Source: Linderina pennispora (lineage: Eukaryota; Kickxellomycota; Kickxellomycetes; Kickxellales; Kickxellaceae). From it: 64,000 nt of DNA. The stretch spans positions 1,550,001 through 1,614,000 of the forward strand of contig NW_024468249.1 in NCBI RefSeq assembly GCF_002104995.1, given 5' to 3'. Under the pieces are notes generated by a model, which had not been told where the DNA came from, did no database searches, and was given only the letters and a program-made list of their open reading frames with translations. Position 1 is the first letter of the stretch. Every line of letters begins with the position of its first letter. Shown piece by piece: positions 1 through 49,518 of the stretch. The position numbers were made by a program, and so were the translations under genes.

Positions 1-2142
1 ATTTGATAATAGCCGAACGGCACTATTTGTACACTGCTAGTCGATTCTCGAATATGCACGCAGATGATCTTTGTCAGCAACTATATTCATCTCAAAGTTA
101 CCATATCGCTCGTATCCGATCAATTGTAAACGTAAATGTCCAGGCGAGATGGATCTTTCGGCAGAAATATGGCTAAATCATCTTTAAATTCCCTGAACCT
201 TTTGTCATCTCGGATGCCGTACACTATCTTCCTATTAGCCTTTTCGCACATAAACAAGTACAATCCAATGATACAGGGCTGCTATTTTTATAGAGAGAGA
301 CAGGAAACACATGAATTTGTAAACCATGGAAAGAGGCATTTGAAACGACCTGCCATCGAAAACACATGGTACCAACATACATGCTATGCCACAATTCATA
401 TGTCACCTCGAGGGGGAGAGGAAAAAAAGCACACTATATATCGGGGTATTTTGAAGACATGTATAGCTTAAGGCAAGGCATAATACTTCCAATGCAGGCG
501 CAACATTCGGGAGGTCAGGATAAAGCACAATATTCCGAGCAACCACTATTCGTATTATATAATCCACAAAATCCTGCTGCGATCTTGTAACTTGGTGGTT
601 TAATACCATTCGGAGCCAGACTATCTGTTCGAGTTGCTTAATGGTGCATATATGGTCAGTTGGAAACTGTCGCTGCTATGGAGTGAGCATTTTATGGTAT
701 GCAAAAGCAACTGACAACCTCTCCCCTGGCTGGAGAATATCTGAGACATGTTTATTACTTTTTCAGCTTGTCTCTGTCATGCTCAACCAACGGCTCTGCA
801 TCGTCACAGCAACTAAACAGCTTGGCAAGCTGGCTTTGGAAATCATCAGCACGCCTACTAGGAAGATGCCGATGAGACCCAAGAATCATCTAGTGGAATG
901 GGGCTTCCAGACTTCCGATACAGTATGTGCATGCGGGCAAATGCCAGGGCGGGTCTGCAAATGCAGACTAGCATGCATTGCTTTCTGGTCAATCGTGTCG
1001 ATGTTTGCCACGTCGGCCATGTTTGCGTTTTGAGCGCAATAGATGGTTCCATTGCTTTTCAGGCGCACTTTCAAAAATCACTCCACCACCAGCAATCCCA
1101 GAAAGCCATGTACTATACCATCCCCTCGCTTGCTGGAGTCGTCTTTAGCATTCTCAGGCGAATGCAGCTGACGTATTTCTGCATGGCCCCGCATTCGGCT
1201 AGAGCAACAAACAGAAATGCTCCGAAGGTCAAATGGGCATCAGCCAAGACCATGTTTAGAATCGCAGGCATGCGTTGGGAGAGTTTTCTGTTGGGTCCTG
1301 TTTGGGGTCGCAGATCGACTTTTCAGTTGTAGACAGCATTGCTACTCGTGTAGGCGATCAAGGTTGCACAGATGCAAACAGGCAGGCGAGGGCGGACCAG
1401 GAAAAATTGTCCGAGCGGCGCCAGATACGGCCAGCTTGACCGATCGGTGTATCTGATTCGCCAGCCCTAGCTCAGCACACCTTCTAAAACCCAACATACG
1501 TGTATGTTGCCTTTGCCCCTTGCCTCGGTCCATGCACGCCGCCTATATCTGGTCCCATGTCGGTGGTGCTGTCGCCACACGTCATTGTGTGATCTTTTTG
1601 TAGGCAGCAGCCACCGAGATAGAGCCACGGGGTTGGACGAGGCGTCCATCAGACGCTGTTGGCTGGTAGCAGCACCAGCACCATGTGGATCAAATGGTGC
1701 CTCACGCTATTCCTTAAATTGAGCATGCACCATGACGTATACACAGCCAGGAACTGGCGGAAAAGCATCCTGCTGACAAGATCTCTTTCCACGGGAGCAC
1801 GTCGATCAGATTCTCTCCTTGCAAAGCTTGCTGGCCAGAGCCGCTTTTTTGCGACAGTCGGTCATGGTCAGGAACTCTCCAATACACCGAACATACTCGG
1901 GCAGCTCACCCCCACACCTCCTCCTGCAAGGCGGCCTTTGTGCCATGTACTTTAGGGGAGAAGCATGCTTAAAGATCTATAATGTAGAAAATCAGCATGA
2001 GGTGAAGACAGCAGGTGGCCATTCTCTGGCCAGTGGAAGTTCGGTTCCATCCCGGGGTAGATCTTTATTTTCTTCTTGTACCACAGAAAAAGTCCTTGCC
2101 TACCAAGGCGTCCCACTCCACTTTATGCGAGCCAGTATCCAG
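1..2142. other. gene-poor left end
   Basis: I see no convincing gene here. All frames are short and none carries a family signature. On the minus strand between about 750 and 1640 there is a patchwork of short open frames in shifting phases, some with hydrophobic runs, ending in two tandem stop codons near 749. This could be a decayed gene, but I cannot name a family. The last 100 bases are the promoter of the sugar porter downstream. Confidence 0.5.
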
Positions 2143-2150
2143 ATATAAAT
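2143..2150 (+). promoter_or_regulatory. TATA box of sugar porter gene
   Basis: The motif atataaat lies about 120 bases upstream of the chosen ATG at 2267, followed by a C/T-rich leader, as at the other TATA-bearing genes of this window. Confidence 0.45.
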
Positions 2151-2266
2151 TGATCCACGCGCACGCATCCCACCCTCCCCCGACTTTTTCCTTTCTGCTC
2201 AACACGACTCAACTCTTTCTCCGAGTCTTATTTCCAATTCTTCTTCTTTGGTATTCATTAACAAAC

Positions 2267-3875
2267 ATGCCTGTCGACGCTAGCCGGGGGATTGAGGGTT
2301 CGTCGCAGTCCGAGTCTGGGCCGCCATCGACTACACAGGATATCAAGGGCGACAAACCCTACACACAAAAGGGTGATTCCGGCTCACTCACGGAGCTGTC
2401 GGGCGAGGACTCGCGGGGGTCTCACATGAACCGCATGCTGTTTGCTTGCGCATCCGTCGCTGCGCTCTCATCTATCAACTACGGCTGGGTAATTGGGTCT
2501 GTCAACATTCCCAGCTTGGTAATCCAGGAATGCTCGAGCGGGCCTGAGGAATGGAAGGCAGGATTCCCTAGCTGCCTGCCGATGGGAAGCACGCTCTGGG
2601 GTCTTGTGGTGGCATTCACGCCGCTGGGCGCATGGGCAGGATCGCTATTCTCGGGCAAATTCGCCGACAGATTTGGCCGCAAGACCACGCTGCTAGCCAA
2701 CAACGTATTCTTCGTGGTGGGTGCCCTGCTGATGTGTACATCAACATCCATTGCACAGCTGGGCGTAGGACGTTTCGTTTCGGGAATTGCCTGTGGTGTG
2801 GCTTCCAACATTGTCTCTACATACAATAGCGAGGCGTCCACTGTCAAGTCTCGTGGACTCCTCGGCGGATTCCAGCAGCTTATGATCCTGGTCGGCCTGT
2901 TTCTGTCGCAGGTAGTGGCCATTGGCCTGTCGACAGCACCGCTCTGGCGTATCCTGTTCTCGATCAGCGCAGCCCTTGCCATTTTCCAGTCGCTGCTGTT
3001 GCTGCTGGCGCCCGAGTCGCCAAGGTTCCTGGCTTCCAAGGGCCGCCTCGAAGAGTCGCGGACAGCGCTGCAGAAGCTGCGGCCAAATCTGAACATCACA
3101 ATGGAGTTTGACGATCTGGTTGAGGCCATCGAGGCTAGCCAGCTGACTGCCGCCGACTACACGCCGTCGCTGTGGGACGTGCTGTCAGGAAACACGCCGA
3201 CCGATCTGCGCCACCTGGTGTACTGCGTGCTGTTCCTGATGCTCTCGCAGCAATGGAGCGGCGCCAAGGGCGTCATGTTCTACTCGACTGAGATCCTCAG
3301 CAAGACCTTCCACCTTACTGAGGAAGAGATCCAGCATATCCCCAGCATTGCGCAGCTGCTCACCGTGGGCATCGGCGCTATTGGTGCTATTGCCGTAGTC
3401 ATTGGTATGAACCTGTTGGACCGACTGGGCCGTCGCACCAGTGCTGATTGCTAGCTCTCTGATGACATGCGTGTGCGCCGTGCTGATTGTGGTCGGCAGC
3501 AAATTGGACATTGGTCCCATGGTCGCCGCTTTCATGTACATGTTCAATCTCGTGTTCCAGAGCGGCGCTGGCTTTATCCCGTACTTGTCAGCCTCGGAAC
3601 TGCTGCCGTACTACGTTCTTGGCAGTATCAGCGGGCTGGCAGCGTCAATCAACAGTCTCGTGCTGTTTGTTGTCAGCCTTCTGTTCCCGGTCCTGGACAA
3701 GGCGCTGGGTCCGTATCTGTTCGTCCCGTTCGCCGCCACCAACTTCATCACATTCCTGTTTGCCTGCCTGTTTATGCCTGAGGCCAAGGGCAAGACGGTG
3801 GTGCAGGTCATCCACGAGTACAAGGGCCCGCTGCATGTTGTTGGCAACATCAAGTTTTGGAAAAAGCAGGCCTAA
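2267..3875 (+). CDS. MFS sugar porter (GLUT/HXT-like), one frame break
   Basis: Probable plasma-membrane sugar or polyol transporter of the MFS sugar-porter family. Seen: an acidic, Ser-rich N-terminal tail of about 50 residues, then about 12 hydrophobic segments. Family signatures follow in order: DRFGRK in the loop after TM2 (about residues 134-139), PESPRFL after TM6, QQWSGAKGVMFYS in TM7 (QQFSGIN-type), DRLGRRT between TM8 and TM9, and PEAKGKT after TM12. An extra A near 3440 changes the frame: DRLGRRT is in phase 2 and the continuing VLIASSLMT in phase 3. Skipping that base restores the family pattern, so I treat it as one gene of about 535 residues. The ATG at 2267 is chosen because it follows the TATA box and leader; upstream in-frame sequence has no ATG with such context. 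The substrate cannot be told from sequence. Confidence 0.87.
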
Positions 3876-4240
3876 CCGGCAGCACACGATCATGTACAAA
3901 CTTTATTATTGCTCTCTGCACCATACACATTAGCCATCCTTTATGTAGCCGTTCTTATACATCTCTGATAATTTCAACACATATTGTTAAGTATGCTTTC
4001 TTTTAAAAAAAGGTGTCCTGAAGAGAAAATTGGTGTCATAAAAAGGTAAAGAGGTTTATGTTTAAAGAAGTGGATGTGGAAGTTGGAATCGGTGGCAGAA
4101 AAGCGGCTTTCTAAAACCTACACCATACTCGCCAGCAGATCACCTCCTTTGTCAAGAACTAGAGCCATCACAGCACACTCTGCTCGCAAGAAGAGTGGGT
4201 CCATGCGAGAAAGAGCATGGCAGTCCATGCAGTGTTCGAT
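3876..4240. other. 3' flanks of convergent genes
   Basis: AT-rich spacer between the convergent sugar porter and the first small secreted-protein gene. I see no gene; it contains short A runs and probable polyadenylation regions of both neighbours. Confidence 0.5.
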
Positions 4241-41623: not shown

Positions 41624-42169
41624 TCATGGACATCTCCCATCTTGGTGGCCTGCCCAGCGCGGGAGTTTCTGCATTGGTTCGTCACTGCTGGCAGCATAAT
41701 CGCCTGCAGCTGCTGCACACCTCTTGCGCAGCTTCTTCGTTGCGGTAGTGATGCCAAAAGTATCGATAGCAATGGCCTTAGAACGGCAGAACCGTTCAGG
41801 AATACTGCCTGAATCACAGAGTGACTGGAAAATGAGCCTGAAGTTTAGAACTGCTGTGAGATCGCGGTTCAAGAGCCGAGACGAATAGGCTTGCCTGTAT
41901 TGTGCCATGGCCCGCTTACATAACTCGCTTGTACAGCAGAGAAGGCCATGGCACTTGATAGTCGGGCTCGCCGATCTCTGATAGGGGCGTGAGCTGGGAA
42001 CATGCCGGAATGTCTGCAGCGACTTTTCGCAGCAGAACGGGCACATCGACGATGTCCGGAATTCGTCAATCAGATAGACTTCAAAACCATGGTGCTTGAA
42101 CTTGTCGCGCCATCCCTTGCCACGAATCTGCGCATGGTGTCGGGCCATCAGTGCACCCCGATTGCTCAT
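41624..42169 (-). pseudogene. C-terminal remnant of a Fanzor/TnpB-like RNA-guided nuclease
   Basis: 181 open codons. Seen: GFEVYLIDEFRTSSMCPFC (residues 28-46), then HGLLCCTSELC (74-84), then LLNRDLTAVLNFRLIF (99-114) and PERFCRSK (124-131). This order is the TnpB-type zinc ribbon (two Cys pairs) followed by the last RuvC Asp (Asp103 in NRD) and the NAA-NI-like helix, in the form known for eukaryotic Fanzor proteins. The Thr-Ser before the first Cys pair also fits. The RuvC-I and RuvC-II parts and the wedge/REC region are absent: upstream sequence has stops in the frames I read, and from about 42550 it belongs to another transcript. So this is a truncated mobile-element relic, unless distant exons exist. 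Family assignment is by motif order from memory, not by search. Confidence 0.6.
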
Positions 42170-42549
42170 GATAGTGCTAGTTCTGGGTTCGATTTTTCGA
42201 GTGTTATGAGGATATCCTTACTTAGGCTGATATCGGCCATAGGCTGTGAAGCCCCATGGCAGATTTCTTCACATTATCGACCGTCTAAAGCATAGTGACT
42301 AGCCAAGCTCGCATTGCGAGCGCCATAAGCCTAGTATATCTGGCACCACAAGATCTGAATCCATCGGCTCAATGGGAGAATAGTGGCTTTTAGGTGTTCA
42401 CAGAACGAGTCATGCATACTCGCTGTGAGGACCAAACGGGCCTGAATCTGTCCAATCAATAAAAAAAACGTTCTAGCGGACGGTCAGATGCATTTGGGAT
42501 ATAAACATTAGATAACTTCATTTCTTTAACAAAAGCACTCATAAAAATC
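42170..42549. other. interval between Fanzor-like remnant and snoRNA host
   Basis: No intact gene. It may contain further unrecognisable remnant of the element or the 3' end of the non-coding host transcript. No terminal inverted repeat was seen. Confidence 0.4.
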
Positions 42550-42699
42550 CCCCAGTACTACGTGCCGATATTATGTATCGCACATCGTGAAGAAAGTATA
42601 TTTACACTGGCTTGGCTACTTTACCTATATGCGTAAGAACGAATACAAAAGTCAGTACCGATATCATCACTATCCAAGATGGGCATTGGGCAATGTGTG

Positions 42700-42809
42700 T
42701 GCTCAGACAAGTTTTATAGGTAGCAGGAGGTTGTCGTCATTACCCCGCCCCGCCTCAGAAAGAGGTGTGGAGCCGGGTAAATAAAGTCAAATGCCTGGGT
42801 CATCATTGC
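42700..42809 (-). ncRNA. C/D-box snoRNA candidate, copy 1 (intron 2)
   Basis: Reading the minus strand: C box ATGATGA (42806-42800), D' CTGA (42758-42755), C' ATGACGA (42740-42734) and D CTGA (42706-42703), spaced 41, 14 and 27 bases. The guide upstream of D' is ccacacctcttt; upstream of D it is acctataaaacttgt. The terminal stem is weak in this copy. rRNA targets cannot be assigned by eye. Confidence 0.55.
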
Positions 42810-43009
42810 AATACGCGCCAGATCGGTGGATCAAGCAGACGAACGTACCTTGCACTCGCTCGCTTGTCGCTGGTGGCCCGCCCGACTCTCGCTGATCAGC
42901 AGTCGCTTGCGCACATTGCTACCTAGGTTCACGTGTAACAAATAATGTTAGCAAGATGTCCAAGCTGGTTGCGGTTTTTTTAAAAGAAAAGCACAGCAGC
43001 TTGTGTTTT

Positions 43010-43119
43010 TGCTCAGACAAGTTTTATAGGTAGCAGGAGGTTGTCGTCATTACCCTGCTCCGCCTCAGAAAGAGGTGTGGGGCCGGGTAAATAAAGTCAA
43101 ATGCCTGGGTCATCATTGC
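43010..43119 (-). ncRNA. C/D-box snoRNA candidate, copy 2 (intron 1)
   Basis: Same layout as copy 1: C box at 43116-43110, D' at 43068-43065, C' at 43050-43044, D at 43016-43013. Here the flanks can pair: GCTTGT before the C box with ACAAGC after the D box (43127-43122 with 43004-42999), a normal terminal stem. Only about three bases differ from copy 1, and all boxes and both presumed guides are identical. Confidence 0.58.
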
Positions 43120-43258
43120 GAACAAGCACAAGCACGCTCAGCAGATTCAAAATCAAAACATACCTTGGCAATAGGCCTGGCAGCAAAAAGGAGCAGATGA
43201 ACTTTGAGATGAGAGCAGAGACAAGCGTGGGCAATGAAAAGTTTTTCGCGGCCCGCGT

Positions 43259-43267
43259 CTTTTTATA
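43259..43267 (-). promoter_or_regulatory. TATA box of snoRNA host
   Basis: TATAAAAAG on the minus strand, about 95 bases upstream of the first predicted donor site. The rest of 43233-43422 has no other feature that I see. Confidence 0.5.
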
Positions 43268-43422: not shown

Positions 43423-44016
43423 CTAGAGATCACTCTGCTCAATCTCGCGGGTGCCGTTCTGGTCAATGATCTTGATCGTAAAGTCGGGCAGGTCGATCAT
43501 GAAGCGAGTCTTGATGACTGCGATGCACTTCTTGACAATGTCGAGCGCCTGCTCCAGCGTGATGTCCTCGGTGTATTCGCGGTCCATGACCGAGTACAAA
43601 AAGTACGAGCAATAGCCGTGCGCGCCATATGGCACCTTGGCCATCGCCGCAAGGTAGTCGATCCAATACAGCGCCGCTTCCTTCTTCTCCTTGTCGTACC
43701 CAGCGACCAGCAGGTTGACCTGGAACGGATTGCGTGAGCGCAGTGCCCTGGCCAACTCGCCGCGGATAAAGTTCGCTGTCTCGCCTACTGACAGATCCCG
43801 CGCGTTGCGCACGCTGTACAGTTTGGCATTCCCCTGGATATACTCTGCGTACGAGTCTGTGTCGCCCGGCTCGCCGCACACTGACATCAGCGTCATCGGC
43901 AACAGCTGCCACGTCTTGTCTTGGGTGTGCTTCATTTTAACGATAGAGTGGACCACATTCTTGTCCGTCACCGAAACGACAAAGTCCTTTCCTGCAATCG
44001 CAAACTGTGCCTCCAT
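43423..44016 (-). CDS. PRE1: proteasome subunit beta type-2 (beta 4)
   Basis: 197 residues. Structural, non-catalytic beta subunit of the 20S proteasome core. Seen: MEAQFAIAGKDFVVSVTDKN (family start, no propeptide and no catalytic Thr), then HTQDKTWQLLP, FIRGELARALRSRNPFQVNLLVAGYD, ALYWIDYLAAMAKVPYGAHGY and DITLEQALDIVKKCIAVIKTRF, all in the PSMB2 order and length. The ATG at 44016 is chosen over upstream in-frame codons because it gives the family N-terminus. Confidence 0.95.
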   Translation of the reverse strand: MEAQFAIAGKDFVVSVTDKNVVHSIVKMKHTQDKTWQLLPMTLMSVCGEPGDTDSYAEYIQGNAKLYSVRNARDLSVGETANFIRGELARALRSRNPFQVNLLVAGYDKEKKEAALYWIDYLAAMAKVPYGAHGYCSYFLYSVMDREYTEDITLEQALDIVKKCIAVIKTRFMIDLPDFTIKIIDQNGTREIEQSDL

Positions 44017-44833
44017 GATGCTGCCAGACGATAATGAGCAATGCGAGTGTGTGCTGAATGGGAAGAATAAAGAAAGAGCTCTGATTACTCGAGGACCTGC
44101 GAAGGTAGAGAAGTAGTGGAATAGAAATTGGCGGCTGCTGTGAAGAAAAAAAGAGGGATATGCCACTCGTCAGTCTGCCTTGCAAAGCGTGGTACGTATG
44201 CCGTGGGCCGTGGGTGGCAGAACGCCTACGTAATGCCAAAGTGCAGCTAAGACGCGGGAATCAAAATTAACGCATCAGATCACCACTGCTGCCCACTGCT
44301 GCCAATGAAACACACCGTCGGCCGAGAACAGCAACCGCACGCAGTATTAGCGATGATCGCTGAATTCCAGACGGCCAATATGGATATCAGACATAGGAAC
44401 TCTAGACTGAGCATCGGCAATAATTGGTATGAATTGCAAACGATCCGTAGACCTGTGCGGTCCCTCTAGTCATGCATGTCTAGACCGGGAAGGGAAAATG
44501 AATGGGTATACCTACCATTAGGATTGGAGTGGTTTGACTGCTCAATTCCATCGCAAATGTTTTTGCCGCCAAACACACTCCCACCTTCTGGTGCACTAGG
44601 CTGGGGTGGATGGTATATATAGCCAGGAACCCCTAGGCAATTCATAGGAACCGGTATCGGTGAGATATCACAAACAAGCAGAATACACCCTATTAATACG
44701 TCTCCCCCCTAATTCGCACTCCCTCCCCCACCTCCGCACTCCTCTGTCTCTCCCGTATCACACAATCACAACCTACATTCGTCAGCTATATAACGACCTG
44801 CTATTCAATAATACACATCTAATATAGTTTAAA
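44017..44833. other. divergent promoter region
   Basis: Between PRE1 and the Cys-rich secreted-protein gene. No gene seen. It includes the TATA box listed separately and a C/T-rich leader of about 150 bases. Confidence 0.5.
44614..44621 (+). promoter_or_regulatory. TATA box of repetitive secreted-protein gene
   Basis: tatatata, about 213 bases upstream of the ATG at 44834. Confidence 0.45.
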
Positions 44834-46237
44834 ATGCGTGTCTCTATCACCCTCGCTCTCGTTGCCTGTGTTTCTCCGGCTGTCCTTGCCAGTAAGCATG
44901 CCCCTGCTACAAGCTCGGTAGTCGCAAATGCAGCTTCAGTTGCTGCGCCTGCAACTGCAGCCTCAGCTGTACCTACCACACCAGCTGCTCCTGCAACACC
45001 TGCAACATCTGCAACGCCTGCAACGCCTGCACCGTCTGCCACCCCGGCCACCCCGATCACCCCAATCACCCCTGCCGTCGTTACCCATGGTCATCCTCAT
45101 GGTGTTCCTGGCGCTACTCATGCTGCCGCTACTCATGCTGCTGCCGCTACTCATGCTGCTGCCGCTACTCATGCTGCTGCTACTACTCATGCTGCTACAC
45201 CAGCTACCGTTCCAGCTGCTGCTCCGGCGTCTGCATCGGCTGTATCGGTTACATCGGCTGCATCGGCTGCATCAGTTGCATCGGGTGGATCAGGTGGATC
45301 AGGTGGATCAGGTGGATCGGGCTCTGGACACCACGGTTCTGGTTCTGGACACCATGGCGCAGGTGTCCAGTACGCAGCACCTGCCGCCTCTATTGACTGT
45401 GAGACTTCGTCGCCTCCTGCATATGCACCTCCGTCGACCTCATGTGAACCCACGACTACTGTCGTTGCTGTCCCTGAGCCAACAACTACTGTAGTTGCGG
45501 TTCCTGAGCCGACTACCACTGTTGTTGCGGTACCTGAGCCCACTACTACCGTAGTTGCTGTCCCCGAGCCGACTACCACTGTTGTACAGGTGCCCAATGC
45601 AGGTGCTGACGACTGCAACACGCCGACGACTGAGGATTGTGATACTCCGACCACCGACTGCGAGACCACTCCAGACTGTGACACACCGACCACCGACTGT
45701 GAGACTACTCCGGACTGTGATACCCCGACTACTGACTGCGAGACCACCCCGGACTGTGATACACCCACCACCGACTGCGAGACTCCGACCACCGACTGCG
45801 ACACGCCAACCACCGACTGCGAGACCACCCCGGATTGTGACACTCCTACCACCGACTGCGAGACTCCTACCACCGACTGCGACACGCCAACCACCGACTG
45901 TGACACGCCGACTACCGACTGCGACACCCCTACCACTGATTGTGAGACTCCTACTACCGACTGCGAGACCCCTGCATATGAGCCGGATTGCGAGGATACC
46001 ACAACCGTCGTCATGGTTCCTGATGAGGACTGTGTGACCACTGTTGTCCAGATGGCTGGTGAGGTCGCCCAGACACTCAACAACGGCGCGCCAGTTGCCA
46101 CCATCGGCTCGTGTGTCGATTACACCGTCACCATCGTCAACACGCAGTATGTCTATGCCACCACTAGGGTCACACCTCAGTGGCTCGCTGTTCCCGGCCA
46201 GACCGTCGTGCCTAATGCTGGCGAGGATTGCGATTAA
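44834..46237 (+). CDS. repetitive secreted cell-wall-like protein, Cys/Thr/Pro repeats
   Basis: 467 residues, intact, no known domain. Seen in order: signal peptide (MRVSITLALVACVSPAVLA); Ala/Thr/Pro-rich block; ATHAAA repeats; Gly-Ser linker (GGSGGSGGSG) and a His-Gly-Ser repeat; about five copies of a PEPTTTVVAV unit; about 17 copies of a short unit (T)DC(E/D)T(P)TT that places one Cys every 7-8 residues; and a non-repetitive end with VTIVNTQYVYATTRV. The Thr density suggests O-mannosylation, and the Cys spacing suggests a disulfide-linked rod or cross-linked wall polymer. No GPI tail. The first hydrophobic segment is the only membrane signal. Confidence 0.82.
   Translation: MRVSITLALVACVSPAVLASKHAPATSSVVANAASVAAPATAASAVPTTPAAPATPATSATPATPAPSATPATPITPITPAVVTHGHPHGVPGATHAAATHAAAATHAAAATHAAATTHAATPATVPAAAPASASAVSVTSAASAASVASGGSGGSGGSGGSGSGHHGSGSGHHGAGVQYAAPAASIDCETSSPPAYAPPSTSCEPTTTVVAVPEPTTTVVAVPEPTTTVVAVPEPTTTVVAVPEPTTTVVQVPNAGADDCNTPTTEDCDTPTTDCETTPDCDTPTTDCETTPDCDTPTTDCETTPDCDTPTTDCETPTTDCDTPTTDCETTPDCDTPTTDCETPTTDCDTPTTDCDTPTTDCDTPTTDCETPTTDCETPAYEPDCEDTTTVVMVPDEDCVTTVVQMAGEVAQTLNNGAPVATIGSCVDYTVTIVNTQYVYATTRVTPQWLAVPGQTVVPNAGEDCD
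45451..45972 (+). repeat. two coding tandem-repeat arrays
   Basis: 45451-45590 repeats a 30-base unit (PEPTTTVVAV); about 45613-45972 repeats 21-27-base units (CDTPTTD / CETTPD types). Synonymous sites vary between copies, so the arrays are not from very recent slippage. Confidence 0.8.
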
Positions 46238-47383: not shown

Positions 47384-49518
47384 ATGAAGAGCGTCCTTTC
47401 CATCTCACTACTTATGACTGCCATCGCCAGCGCAGCCCCAAGCGTTGTTGCCTGTGAAGGTCATAACTCTGGGCCTGCAATGGCTGCCTACTCTGGTAGC
47501 CCACCTTCAGGGTATGGTGCCGCTGCCGTCAAGCCTGCTGGCTACGGTTCGCGCAGTATTCTGAGGAACAGGCCTGCTCGTGCTGCCCGTGCGTCGCAAG
47601 GATATGGTTCCAGCTCTTCGGGATCGTATGGTGGTGCCGCCGCTCCTGCTGCTCCTGCTGCTGCTGCTCCTGCAAATTCGTCTTCGTCGGGCTATGGTTC
47701 CAGCTCATCTGGCTATGGTGCTGCTGCTGCTCCAGCTGCCGCTGCCGCCCCTGCAGACTCTTCATCGCCGAGCTACGGATCGAGCTCTTATACCGGCAAT
47801 GAAGCTCCAGCTGCCGCTGCCGCTGCCCCTGCTCCGGCTTCAGGTTCGTCCAGCTACGGATCTAGCTCGGATTCGTACGGTGCTGGGGCCGCTGCCGCTG
47901 CTGCCGCTCCTGCGCCTGCTGCCGCCGCTCCTGCCTCGGGCTACGGATCTCCTAGCTCCGGCTACAGTTCTAGTGGCGCTGCTCCTGCCGCTCCTGCCGC
48001 GCCTGCCGCCGCTGCTCCTGCTGACTCTTCATCAGGCTATGGCTCCAGCTCATCGGGTTACGGATCCAGCTCGCCGAGCTATGGTGGTGCTGCTCCTGCA
48101 GCTGCCGCCCCTGCAGCCCCTGCAGCCCCTGCAGCTGCTTCTGGCTACGGTTCAGACTCCGGATCCTCAGGATATAGCGCTTCGGCTGCACCTTCTCCTG
48201 CTCCTGCCTATGGTAGCTCAGGCTACAGCTCGTCGGGATCGGACTCGGGCTATGGCGCTGCCGCTGCTTCCGCTCCTGCCGCCGCCCCTGCTCCCCAAGG
48301 ATACAGCGCTCCTGCACCTCAGGGCTATAGCTCTAGCGCTGCTCCGTCGGCCAGCGAGTATGAGAGCCAGTCGGCGTCGAATGACTATAGTTCTGAGGCC
48401 CCGACCAGTGCCTCATACGCATCCAAGATTGGATACAAGCATGTGCCCGGCGGGTACCACTCCAAGCCCAGCAGTGGATACAGCGCTTCATCGGCTCCTC
48501 CGGCTCCTGCCCCTGCACCTCAGGGCTACAGCTCCGCGGCCCCTGAACCTCAGGGTTACAGCCCCGCCGCTCCTGCGCCTCAGGGCTATAGCTCCGCAGC
48601 CCCTGCTCCTACATATGGTGATTCTGACGCCAGCTCGGCTGACTGCTCGTCCAGCTCTGCTGCTCCTGCTCCCCAGGGATACGGCTCTGCTGCCCCCGCC
48701 CCCGCCCCTGCCCCCGCACCTCAAGGATACAGCCCAGCTGCTCCTGCCCCCGCACCTCAAGGATACGGCTCTGCTGCCCCCGCCCCCGCACCTCAAGGAT
48801 ACAGCTCTGCTGCTCCTGCCCCTGCACCCCAAGGATACAGCCCTGCTGCCCCCGCCCCCGCCCCGCCCCCGCACCTCAAGGATACAACTCTTCCTCAGCT
48901 GCTGATGATTCTTATGGCGATGGCAACGACACTGACACCCCTGCACCTGCACATCCTGCAGCACCTGCCGCAGCACCAGCTGAGGCACCTGCCGGCTACG
49001 GATCGGCCGCTCCGGCTCTCTCCTCACAGGACATCGTGATCCACCTGACGGCCAGCCTGGATATCAGCGCACCTCAGCAGGCACCCACGGGCGCCCCGGC
49101 CCCTGCTGAGACACCCGCAGGCTATGCGTCGCCAGAAGCTCCCTCATCGTCGGCGGCTGCAGCATCGTACTCTTCTGCTGCTCCATCCTACTCCTCGGCT
49201 GCTCCGTCATACTCTTCAGCTGCTCCAGCATCGTACTCTTCTGCTGCTCCGTCGTACTCATCGTCTGCTTCCCCTGCATACTCAGCACAGGGGGCAGCTT
49301 CGTACGACAATGCCCCAGTACCCGCCCCTGCTGCAGCGCCTGCTCCGAGCAAGGGCTATGGCGGCCGTGCGGCAGTCGAGCACGAGAAGCTTAACGGATT
49401 CTATACGATCAACTATGTCTTCTCTGAGGGCATCCCGCCACAGATCACAGCTGTGCCGGTTGACCAGCGCGAGAACATTGTGTTCCAGGCTGTTAATGCT
49501 AGCCCGTCCATGATCTAA
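47384..49518 (+). CDS. repetitive secreted protein, Gly-Tyr-Ser / Ala-Pro repeats, one frame break
   Basis: About 711 residues. Seen: signal peptide (MKSVLSISLLMTAIASA), then roughly 480 residues built of GYGSSSSGYG and AAPAPAPA blocks changing to PAPQGYS(S/P)AAPAP units, then a mixed part, then an AAPSYSSAAPSYSS array. A non-repetitive end follows (LNGFYTINYVFSEGIPPQ, ITAVPVDQRENIVF). One base is missing or extra in a C-run near 48870; changing phase there keeps APQGY units and leads to SSQDIVIHLTASLDIS and the end at 49518. The Gly-Tyr-Ser part is like silk or glycine-rich wall proteins. Extracellular or wall role is inferred; the C-terminal conserved-looking piece is unknown to me. Confidence 0.76.

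Follow-up and report, generated by a model that had tools for sequence, protein, structure and literature searches.

In vertebrates, the UHG and GAS5 genes are built of non-coding exons, carry many functional snoRNAs in their introns and have 5'TOP promoters. In N. crassa, introns of host genes, coding or non-coding, are reported to house 45 of 55 C/D snoRNAs, and the intronic snoRNAs to lie for the most part 41-60 nt from the 5' splice site; the same report describes snoRNA clusters with UHG-like hosts whose spliced RNAs were seen by RT-PCR, and snoRNA genes that are mostly singletons (PMC2780460). A wider study of fungi describes three non-coding snoRNA clusters, which are intronic in Rhizopus oryzae, mostly by prediction, with 83 of 323 introns verified over all of the species that it covers (PMC3596301). 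Moreover, the snoRNA-bearing intron positions of yeast RPL7 and NOG2 are reported to persist in 82% (RPL7) and 72% (NOG2) of fungal species (PMC8476143). One review holds, against this, that fungal snoRNAs mostly come from independent intergenic genes (PMC11028025).

Here we examine a locus of Linderina pennispora that had been predicted, from its letters, to be a spliced non-coding host gene with two intronic C/D-box snoRNA paralogues. It lies within the window (the whole stretch of 64,000 nucleotides analysed, to which all positions refer unless stated otherwise), on a 3.3-Mb contig of an assembly of 26.17 Mb and 222 contigs. The predicted gene structure appears to be the best reading of the locus, with a probability of roughly 0.85, because of the order and spacing of the boxes, the intron signals that are kept between two versions of the locus, the lower divergence of the snoRNA cores relative to exons 2 and 3 and most of the intron flanks, and a U14 locus of similar layout in the same genome. 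The original prediction is supported, apart from its assignment of the terminal stem, which fails, and its D' guide, which is weakened.

On the minus strand between 43267 and 42625 there are two apparent spliceosomal introns, each with one C/D element. The TATA box TATAAAAA, a putative promoter element, was read directly at 43267-43260, upstream of the host as predicted. Exon 1 (43164..43235, its start placed from the position of the TATA box) ends CCAAG and has neither an ATG nor a coding frame. It is followed by intron 1 (42923..43163, 241 nt, GTATGT ... CTAAC ... CCTAG), exon 2 (42849..42922, 74 nt, non-coding), intron 2 (42625..42848, 224 nt, GTACGT ... CTGAC ... TATAG) and exon 3 together with downstream sequence (42500..42624, starting GTAAAG, with a 3' limit set arbitrarily). 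With a slash marking each junction, the donors read AAG/GTATGT and AAG/GTACGT and the acceptors CCTAG/GTA and TATAG/GTA for introns 1 and 2, and the last 60 nt of each intron contain a single YTRAY, 25 or 27 nt from the acceptor. The donor, branch and acceptor signals that had been named are thus present. For comparison, one intron of a beta-tubulin-like gene in the same genome reads, by eye, AAG/GTACCG ... TTTAG/GTC.

No coding frame was found in the presumed exons when 43235 was taken as the start of the spliced RNA: a frame of 6 codons begins at the first ATG, and the longest ATG frame, in the presumed 3' part, spans 28 codons. A protein-coding gene was rejected on these grounds, in agreement with the earlier description of the exons, and the host layout, with its non-coding exons, is in all probability UHG/GAS5-like. 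Separately, a CTTTTC was noted by eye about 30 nt past the TATA box, an observation relevant to a 5'TOP-type start.

A second version of the locus was found on a 32.9-kb contig (C14), where the same region is syntenic and 96% identical; a 10-kb stretch of this contig aligns over its length at 96.5%. The C14 copy is probably the other haplotype, as short contigs of this assembly probably are in general, because a gamma-tubulin-like gene is likewise present both on a large contig and on one of 49 kb. For the Linderina pennispora assembly, a likely diploid state with 24.72% allelic models has been described (PMC6757388). Alternatively, the second version may stem from a recent segmental duplication. 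A DNA search with the 718-nt region returned at least two places in the genome, which are mutually syntenic, and a dispersed transposon is not supported by this count, itself a lower bound. With regard to the duplicated tubulin gene, which was taken for gamma-tubulin and occurs on contigs C180 and C13, the copy on the 49-kb contig appears frame-shifted near its start, which could mean a broken allele or a mistake in the assembly.

The surroundings of the locus hold several further features. The upstream neighbour on the same strand (43423-44166) encodes a proteasome domain, and the nearest named relatives of its product are the proteasome beta-4 proteins of Dipsacomyces (77% identity) and Martensiomyces (78%), followed by those of Coemansia and Kickxella, which places the organism among the kickxellalean fungi. 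On the other side, a 181-aa ORF with cysteine pairs (41624-42169, minus strand) has a weak NCBIfam match (E=0.008, 15.5/100 bits) to the final part of TnpB-type nucleases and none in Pfam; a similar stretch is also found in the second version of the locus, and the ORF is perhaps a decayed Fanzor-like fragment. The products of two neighbouring plus-strand ORFs (44834-46237 and 47384-49039) look secreted and are rich in repeats, with tandem arrays.

Each C/D element lies in one of two direct repeats (42694-42809 and 43004-43119, minus strand) that are 96% identical and 310 bases apart, start to start. The distance agrees with the original prediction; the repeat length does not, being 116 nt and not 110. 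Repeat comparison, a box scan and a letter check together delimit copy 1 at 43013..43116 and copy 2 at 42703..42806, each 104 nt from C box to D box. Checked letter by letter, copy 1 has a C box ATGATGA (43116-43110), a D' box CTGA (43068-43065), a C' box ATGACGA (43050-43044) and a D box CTGA (43016-43013). The same boxes occur in copy 2 at 42806-42800, 42758-42755, 42740-42734 and 42706-42703, confirming the proposed order. Four sequences could be compared, namely copies 1 and 2 in each of the two versions of the locus. The box spacing of 41, 14 and 27 nt is identical in all four, as are the intact C box ATGATGA and D box CTGA.

A scan for this box order over both strands of the 64-kb window returned three places, two of which are these copies; in 40 random windows generated with the dinucleotide frequencies of the window, the count averaged 0.2 and never exceeded 2. 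We consider it very likely that the elements are C/D box snoRNAs. The third place (3751-3628, minus strand) has a C/D-like order with a C box GTGATGA and is possibly due to chance.

Within the introns, the C boxes are preceded by 47 and 42 nt and the D boxes followed by 90 and 78 nt (introns 1 and 2, respectively), and the flanks of intron 1 are no more similar to those of intron 2 than are shuffled sequences (39/300 and 174/300 as good). Four sites between C box and D box vary among the four sequences: two between the D' and C' boxes, one just 5' of the D' guide, and one between the C' box and the D guide. The differences therefore avoid the four boxes and the letters originally proposed as guides, as had been noted. 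Two fixed A/G differences distinguish copy 1 from copy 2.

Folding of the region from C box to D box predicts an internal hairpin, with the main helix spanning 43041..43100 in copy 1 and 42731..42790 in copy 2. The folds reached z scores of -1.9 for copy 1 and -3.0 for its counterpart in the second version (the latter with a sequence shifted by 2 nt), and of -2.8 for copy 2 and -3.1 for its counterpart; among 200 dinucleotide shuffles, 10, 0, 2 and 0, respectively, were as good. A longer fold of 141 nt, copy 2 with its flanks, was ordinary (z -0.8, 38/200 shuffles as good). The predicted hairpin common to the four folds has 26 pairs with 99% of cells paired, a figure obtained from the same four sequences from which the structure was derived. 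Of these pairs, 25 are invariant, and the remaining one is U-G, U-A, or broken in copy 1 of the window; no compensatory change was found among the 26 pairs in the four sequences. Because covariation was no higher than in shuffles, the hairpin rests on folding energy. It is a plausible structure, and one that would conflict with use of the D' guide, as it takes in both the D' box and the D' guide of the original prediction.

The terminal pairing of the two copies turned out to be the reverse of what had been described, namely a stem in copy 2 only. With 25-nt flanks, copy 1 gave a terminal pairing of -16.7 kcal/mol (10/500 shuffles as good) and its counterpart in the second version -22.5 kcal/mol (0/500). 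In the fold with flanks, the external stem of copy 1 consists of a 7-bp helix between the 5' arm GCTTGTG (43127..43133) and the 3' arm CACAAGC (42999..43005), with 4-bp helices on either side. Copy 2 has a terminal stem of 3 bp (TGC with GCA), which is like that of shuffled sequences (92/500 and 287/500 as good in the two versions). Extending the flanks to 35 nt gave 4 and 0 shuffles of 500 as good for copy 1, and 170 and 415 for copy 2. One longer fold of copy 2 does show, in its centroid, a 6-bp helix of GCAATG with CATTGC, which takes up letters of the C box.

The sole clean guide candidate in this model is the D guide ACCTATAAAACTTGT (43017..43031 in copy 1 and 42707..42721 in copy 2), because the D' guide and D' box fall in the predicted hairpin. 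Two guides had been proposed; the D guide stands as a candidate, invariant in all four sequences, and the D' guide is weakened by its position. We scanned the D guide, the D' guide in both versions and the guide of an alternative D' box (TTGA) against the organism's own SSU, 5.8S, ITS1, ITS2, a pre-SSU stretch, the first 647 nt of the LSU, U2 and U6, and against the C-to-T converted LSU of another record. No guide stood out from shuffles in any of the organism's own sequences on this list, and the proposed alignment of guides to rRNA and U6 thus gave no convincing target within the rRNA covered or in U6. The lowest shuffle count came from pairing the D guide with 5.8S (8 nt including one G-U, 2/60 as good), one of 28 comparisons, and it was not taken as significant. 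When at most 1 mismatch is allowed, the assembly contains the complement of the 15-nt D guide at four sites, all of them the snoRNA gene itself.

The rDNA contig ends 647 nt into the LSU, and three sequence patterns for the later LSU, allowing 2 or 3 mismatches, found no match in the assembly. Most likely, the target lies in that part of the LSU for which no match was found in the assembly. Since no guide stands out within the scanned RNAs, we infer the role in guiding methylation from membership of the class. Two observations on the rRNA records are added here: the rDNA contig carries a 5S rRNA gene (1672-1790 of its record, minus strand) on the strand opposite to the SSU gene, and a contig filed under Streptomyces aureoverticillatus contains a eukaryotic LSU rRNA (594-4043, minus strand) with no C in 3450 bases, which looks like bisulfite-converted contamination and is the C-to-T converted LSU scanned above.

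A variant that is compatible with the host-gene reading is a double-guide snoRNA with a working D' guide, CCACACCTCTTT. It can appeal to an exact D' box (CTGA), a near-exact C' box (ATGACGA), a 12-nt D' guide that is invariant in all four sequences, and a match of 9 bp, AAGAGGTGT, whose offset fits, in the C-to-T converted eukaryotic LSU. However, this match was equalled or beaten by 37/60 and 33/60 shuffled guides, and the D' guide and D' box are part of the predicted 26-pair hairpin seen in all four C..D folds (z -1.9 to -3.1). We regard a second working guide as possible but doubtful.

The covariance search that had been suggested for both copies returned no Rfam family at threshold: the window had none at the gathering cut-off, and relaxed thresholds gave only matches with E > 2 at the host locus. 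On these results, a known Rfam family was rejected for the studied snoRNA. A literature search for printed guide sequences listed one paper, which concerns a histone deacetylase complex. As a control, the Rfam U14 model matches one place in the genome (C157:827390-827486) at 54.1 bits, against a cut-off of 64. Within 3.1 kb of it are matches to snR107 (33.9/44 bits), overlapped by SNORD12 (31.8/43), and to SNORD49 (30.5/37), overlapped by Afu_300 (21.5/40). The control snoRNAs had E values of 0.0007 or better. Because the U14, snR107-like and SNORD49-like matches also fall below their cut-offs, failure to reach a cut-off says little here. Unlike them, however, the studied snoRNA does not have even a convincing sub-threshold family and is unclassified.

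The control matches (snR107-like, U14, SNORD49-like) follow one another downstream of a TATA box, all on the reverse strand of contig C157 (about 1050-2000 of the stretch examined there, counted on that strand). Introns assigned by eye have the donors TAG/GTAAGC, GCG/GTAAGG and AAG/GTACAT and the acceptors TTTTTAG/GTAT and CATTTAG/GTAT, preceded by CTAAC or CTGAC, with the last acceptor uncertain. The C boxes lie 48-54 nt from the donors, compared with 47 and 42 nt at the studied locus. The U14 match ends GTCTTA, without a clean CTGA D box. The C157 locus is probably a second non-coding snoRNA host, and its layout suggests that this genome uses such hosts.

A spliced host would operate as follows, with transcription, splicing, trimming, methylation and target all inferred from what is typical of the class. 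RNA polymerase II would transcribe a gene without a protein product from about 30 nt downstream of the TATA box, and the transcript would be spliced at 43163/42923 and 42848/42625. Exonucleases would trim the debranched introns as far as a C/D snoRNP formed on the C and D boxes, so that two near-identical snoRNAs of about 104-120 nt remain. Once the D guide has paired with its target RNA, the 2'-O-methylated site would lie opposite the fifth nucleotide upstream of the D box. This would probably be a single-guide snoRNA, owing to the hairpin between the C box and C' box. By analogy with snoRNAs that act in rRNA processing, the internal hairpin may have a role of its own. We tentatively suggest, as a possibility somewhat weaker than that of a second guide, that this C/D snoRNA, with its large internal hairpin and two co-transcribed copies, is specific to the lineage and directed at a methylation absent from yeast and human or at a target other than rRNA.

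Alternatively, real snoRNAs could be freed without splicing, by endonuclease cleavage of a polycistronic precursor or by transcription from their own promoters. Independent units are said in one review to be the rule in fungi (PMC11028025), and the evidence for splicing at this locus consists of its splice signals. Against this, both versions of the locus share the donor, branch and acceptor letters of the two introns despite changes at neighbouring intron bases, the layout of the U14 locus is similar, and by eye no separate TATA box precedes copy 2. Release without splicing is accordingly an unlikely account, well behind that of the spliced host.

It is also conceivable that one or both copies are degenerating duplicates, that is, functionless snoRNA pseudogenes; copy 2 has no strong terminal stem, and no target was found in the scanned RNAs. 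However, the four boxes are intact in all four sequences, and the two 104-nt cores differ between versions at 2/208 sites, compared with 5/74 in exon 2 (p=0.015), 10/125 in exon 3 and downstream, and 13/165 in the 3' intron flanks. Pooling exon 2 with exon 3 and downstream sequence gives 15/199 differing sites against the cores (p=0.0009, from a comparison of two versions only), and the intron flanks as a whole give 15/242 (Fisher p=0.005). The snoRNA cores are not alone in diverging little, because the stretch from the TATA box to exon 1 (43270-43164) differs at 0/107 sites and the 5' flank of intron 1 at 0/41; the spacer before the TATA box differs at 3/152. We judge decay of the copies to be slightly less probable still than release without splicing. 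Least credible of all is a structured hairpin element, either a small-RNA precursor or a mobile repeat, with boxes arising by coincidence: its C..D folds do beat most dinucleotide shuffles, but the DNA search gave two syntenic places (a lower bound), the box scan exceeded random windows, and a position within introns fits snoRNAs.

The spliced host with two snoRNA paralogues, as the preferred reading, adds a probable non-coding snoRNA host in the Kickxellales, and the control locus a second, which helps to place the layout of one intron per snoRNA in fungal evolution. Near-identical snoRNAs with unlike intron flanks and terminal stems would provide a natural test of what intronic snoRNA processing needs. 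Moreover, the control locus indicates that Rfam cut-offs can miss probable snoRNAs in the kickxellalean lineage.

In comparison with known systems, the locus resembles the clusters described for N. crassa in having intronic C/D snoRNAs, largely one per intron, hosts with short ORFs, and a similar distance to the 5' splice site. It differs in that those clusters, as reported, hold yeast-conserved snoRNAs with splicing seen by RT-PCR, whereas here there are two paralogues of one unclassified snoRNA, with splicing predicted from sequence signals. With clusters I-III of Rhizopus oryzae it shares a non-coding host, intronic snoRNAs, an early-diverging fungus and introns that are largely predicted (PMC3596301); unlike snR72-78, snR57-55-61 and snR41-70-51 of those clusters, the present snoRNA has no Rfam match. 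The U14/snR107/SNORD49-like locus on contig C157 is alike in its TATA box, consecutive apparent introns, AG/GT-type 3' junctions and one C/D match in each intron, and is unlike in carrying three different recognisable families and not two copies of one. UHG and GAS5 share the non-coding exons and intronic snoRNAs, with many more snoRNAs and 5'TOP promoters, and homology is not implied. The original prediction held the gene structure to be noteworthy for an early-diverging fungus; the kind is not new for such a fungus, as a layout of this type is already described, mostly by prediction, in Rhizopus oryzae (PMC3596301). With the layout thus known in early-diverging fungi, what is new is the locus, its unclassified snoRNA, and the duplication of that snoRNA within one host.
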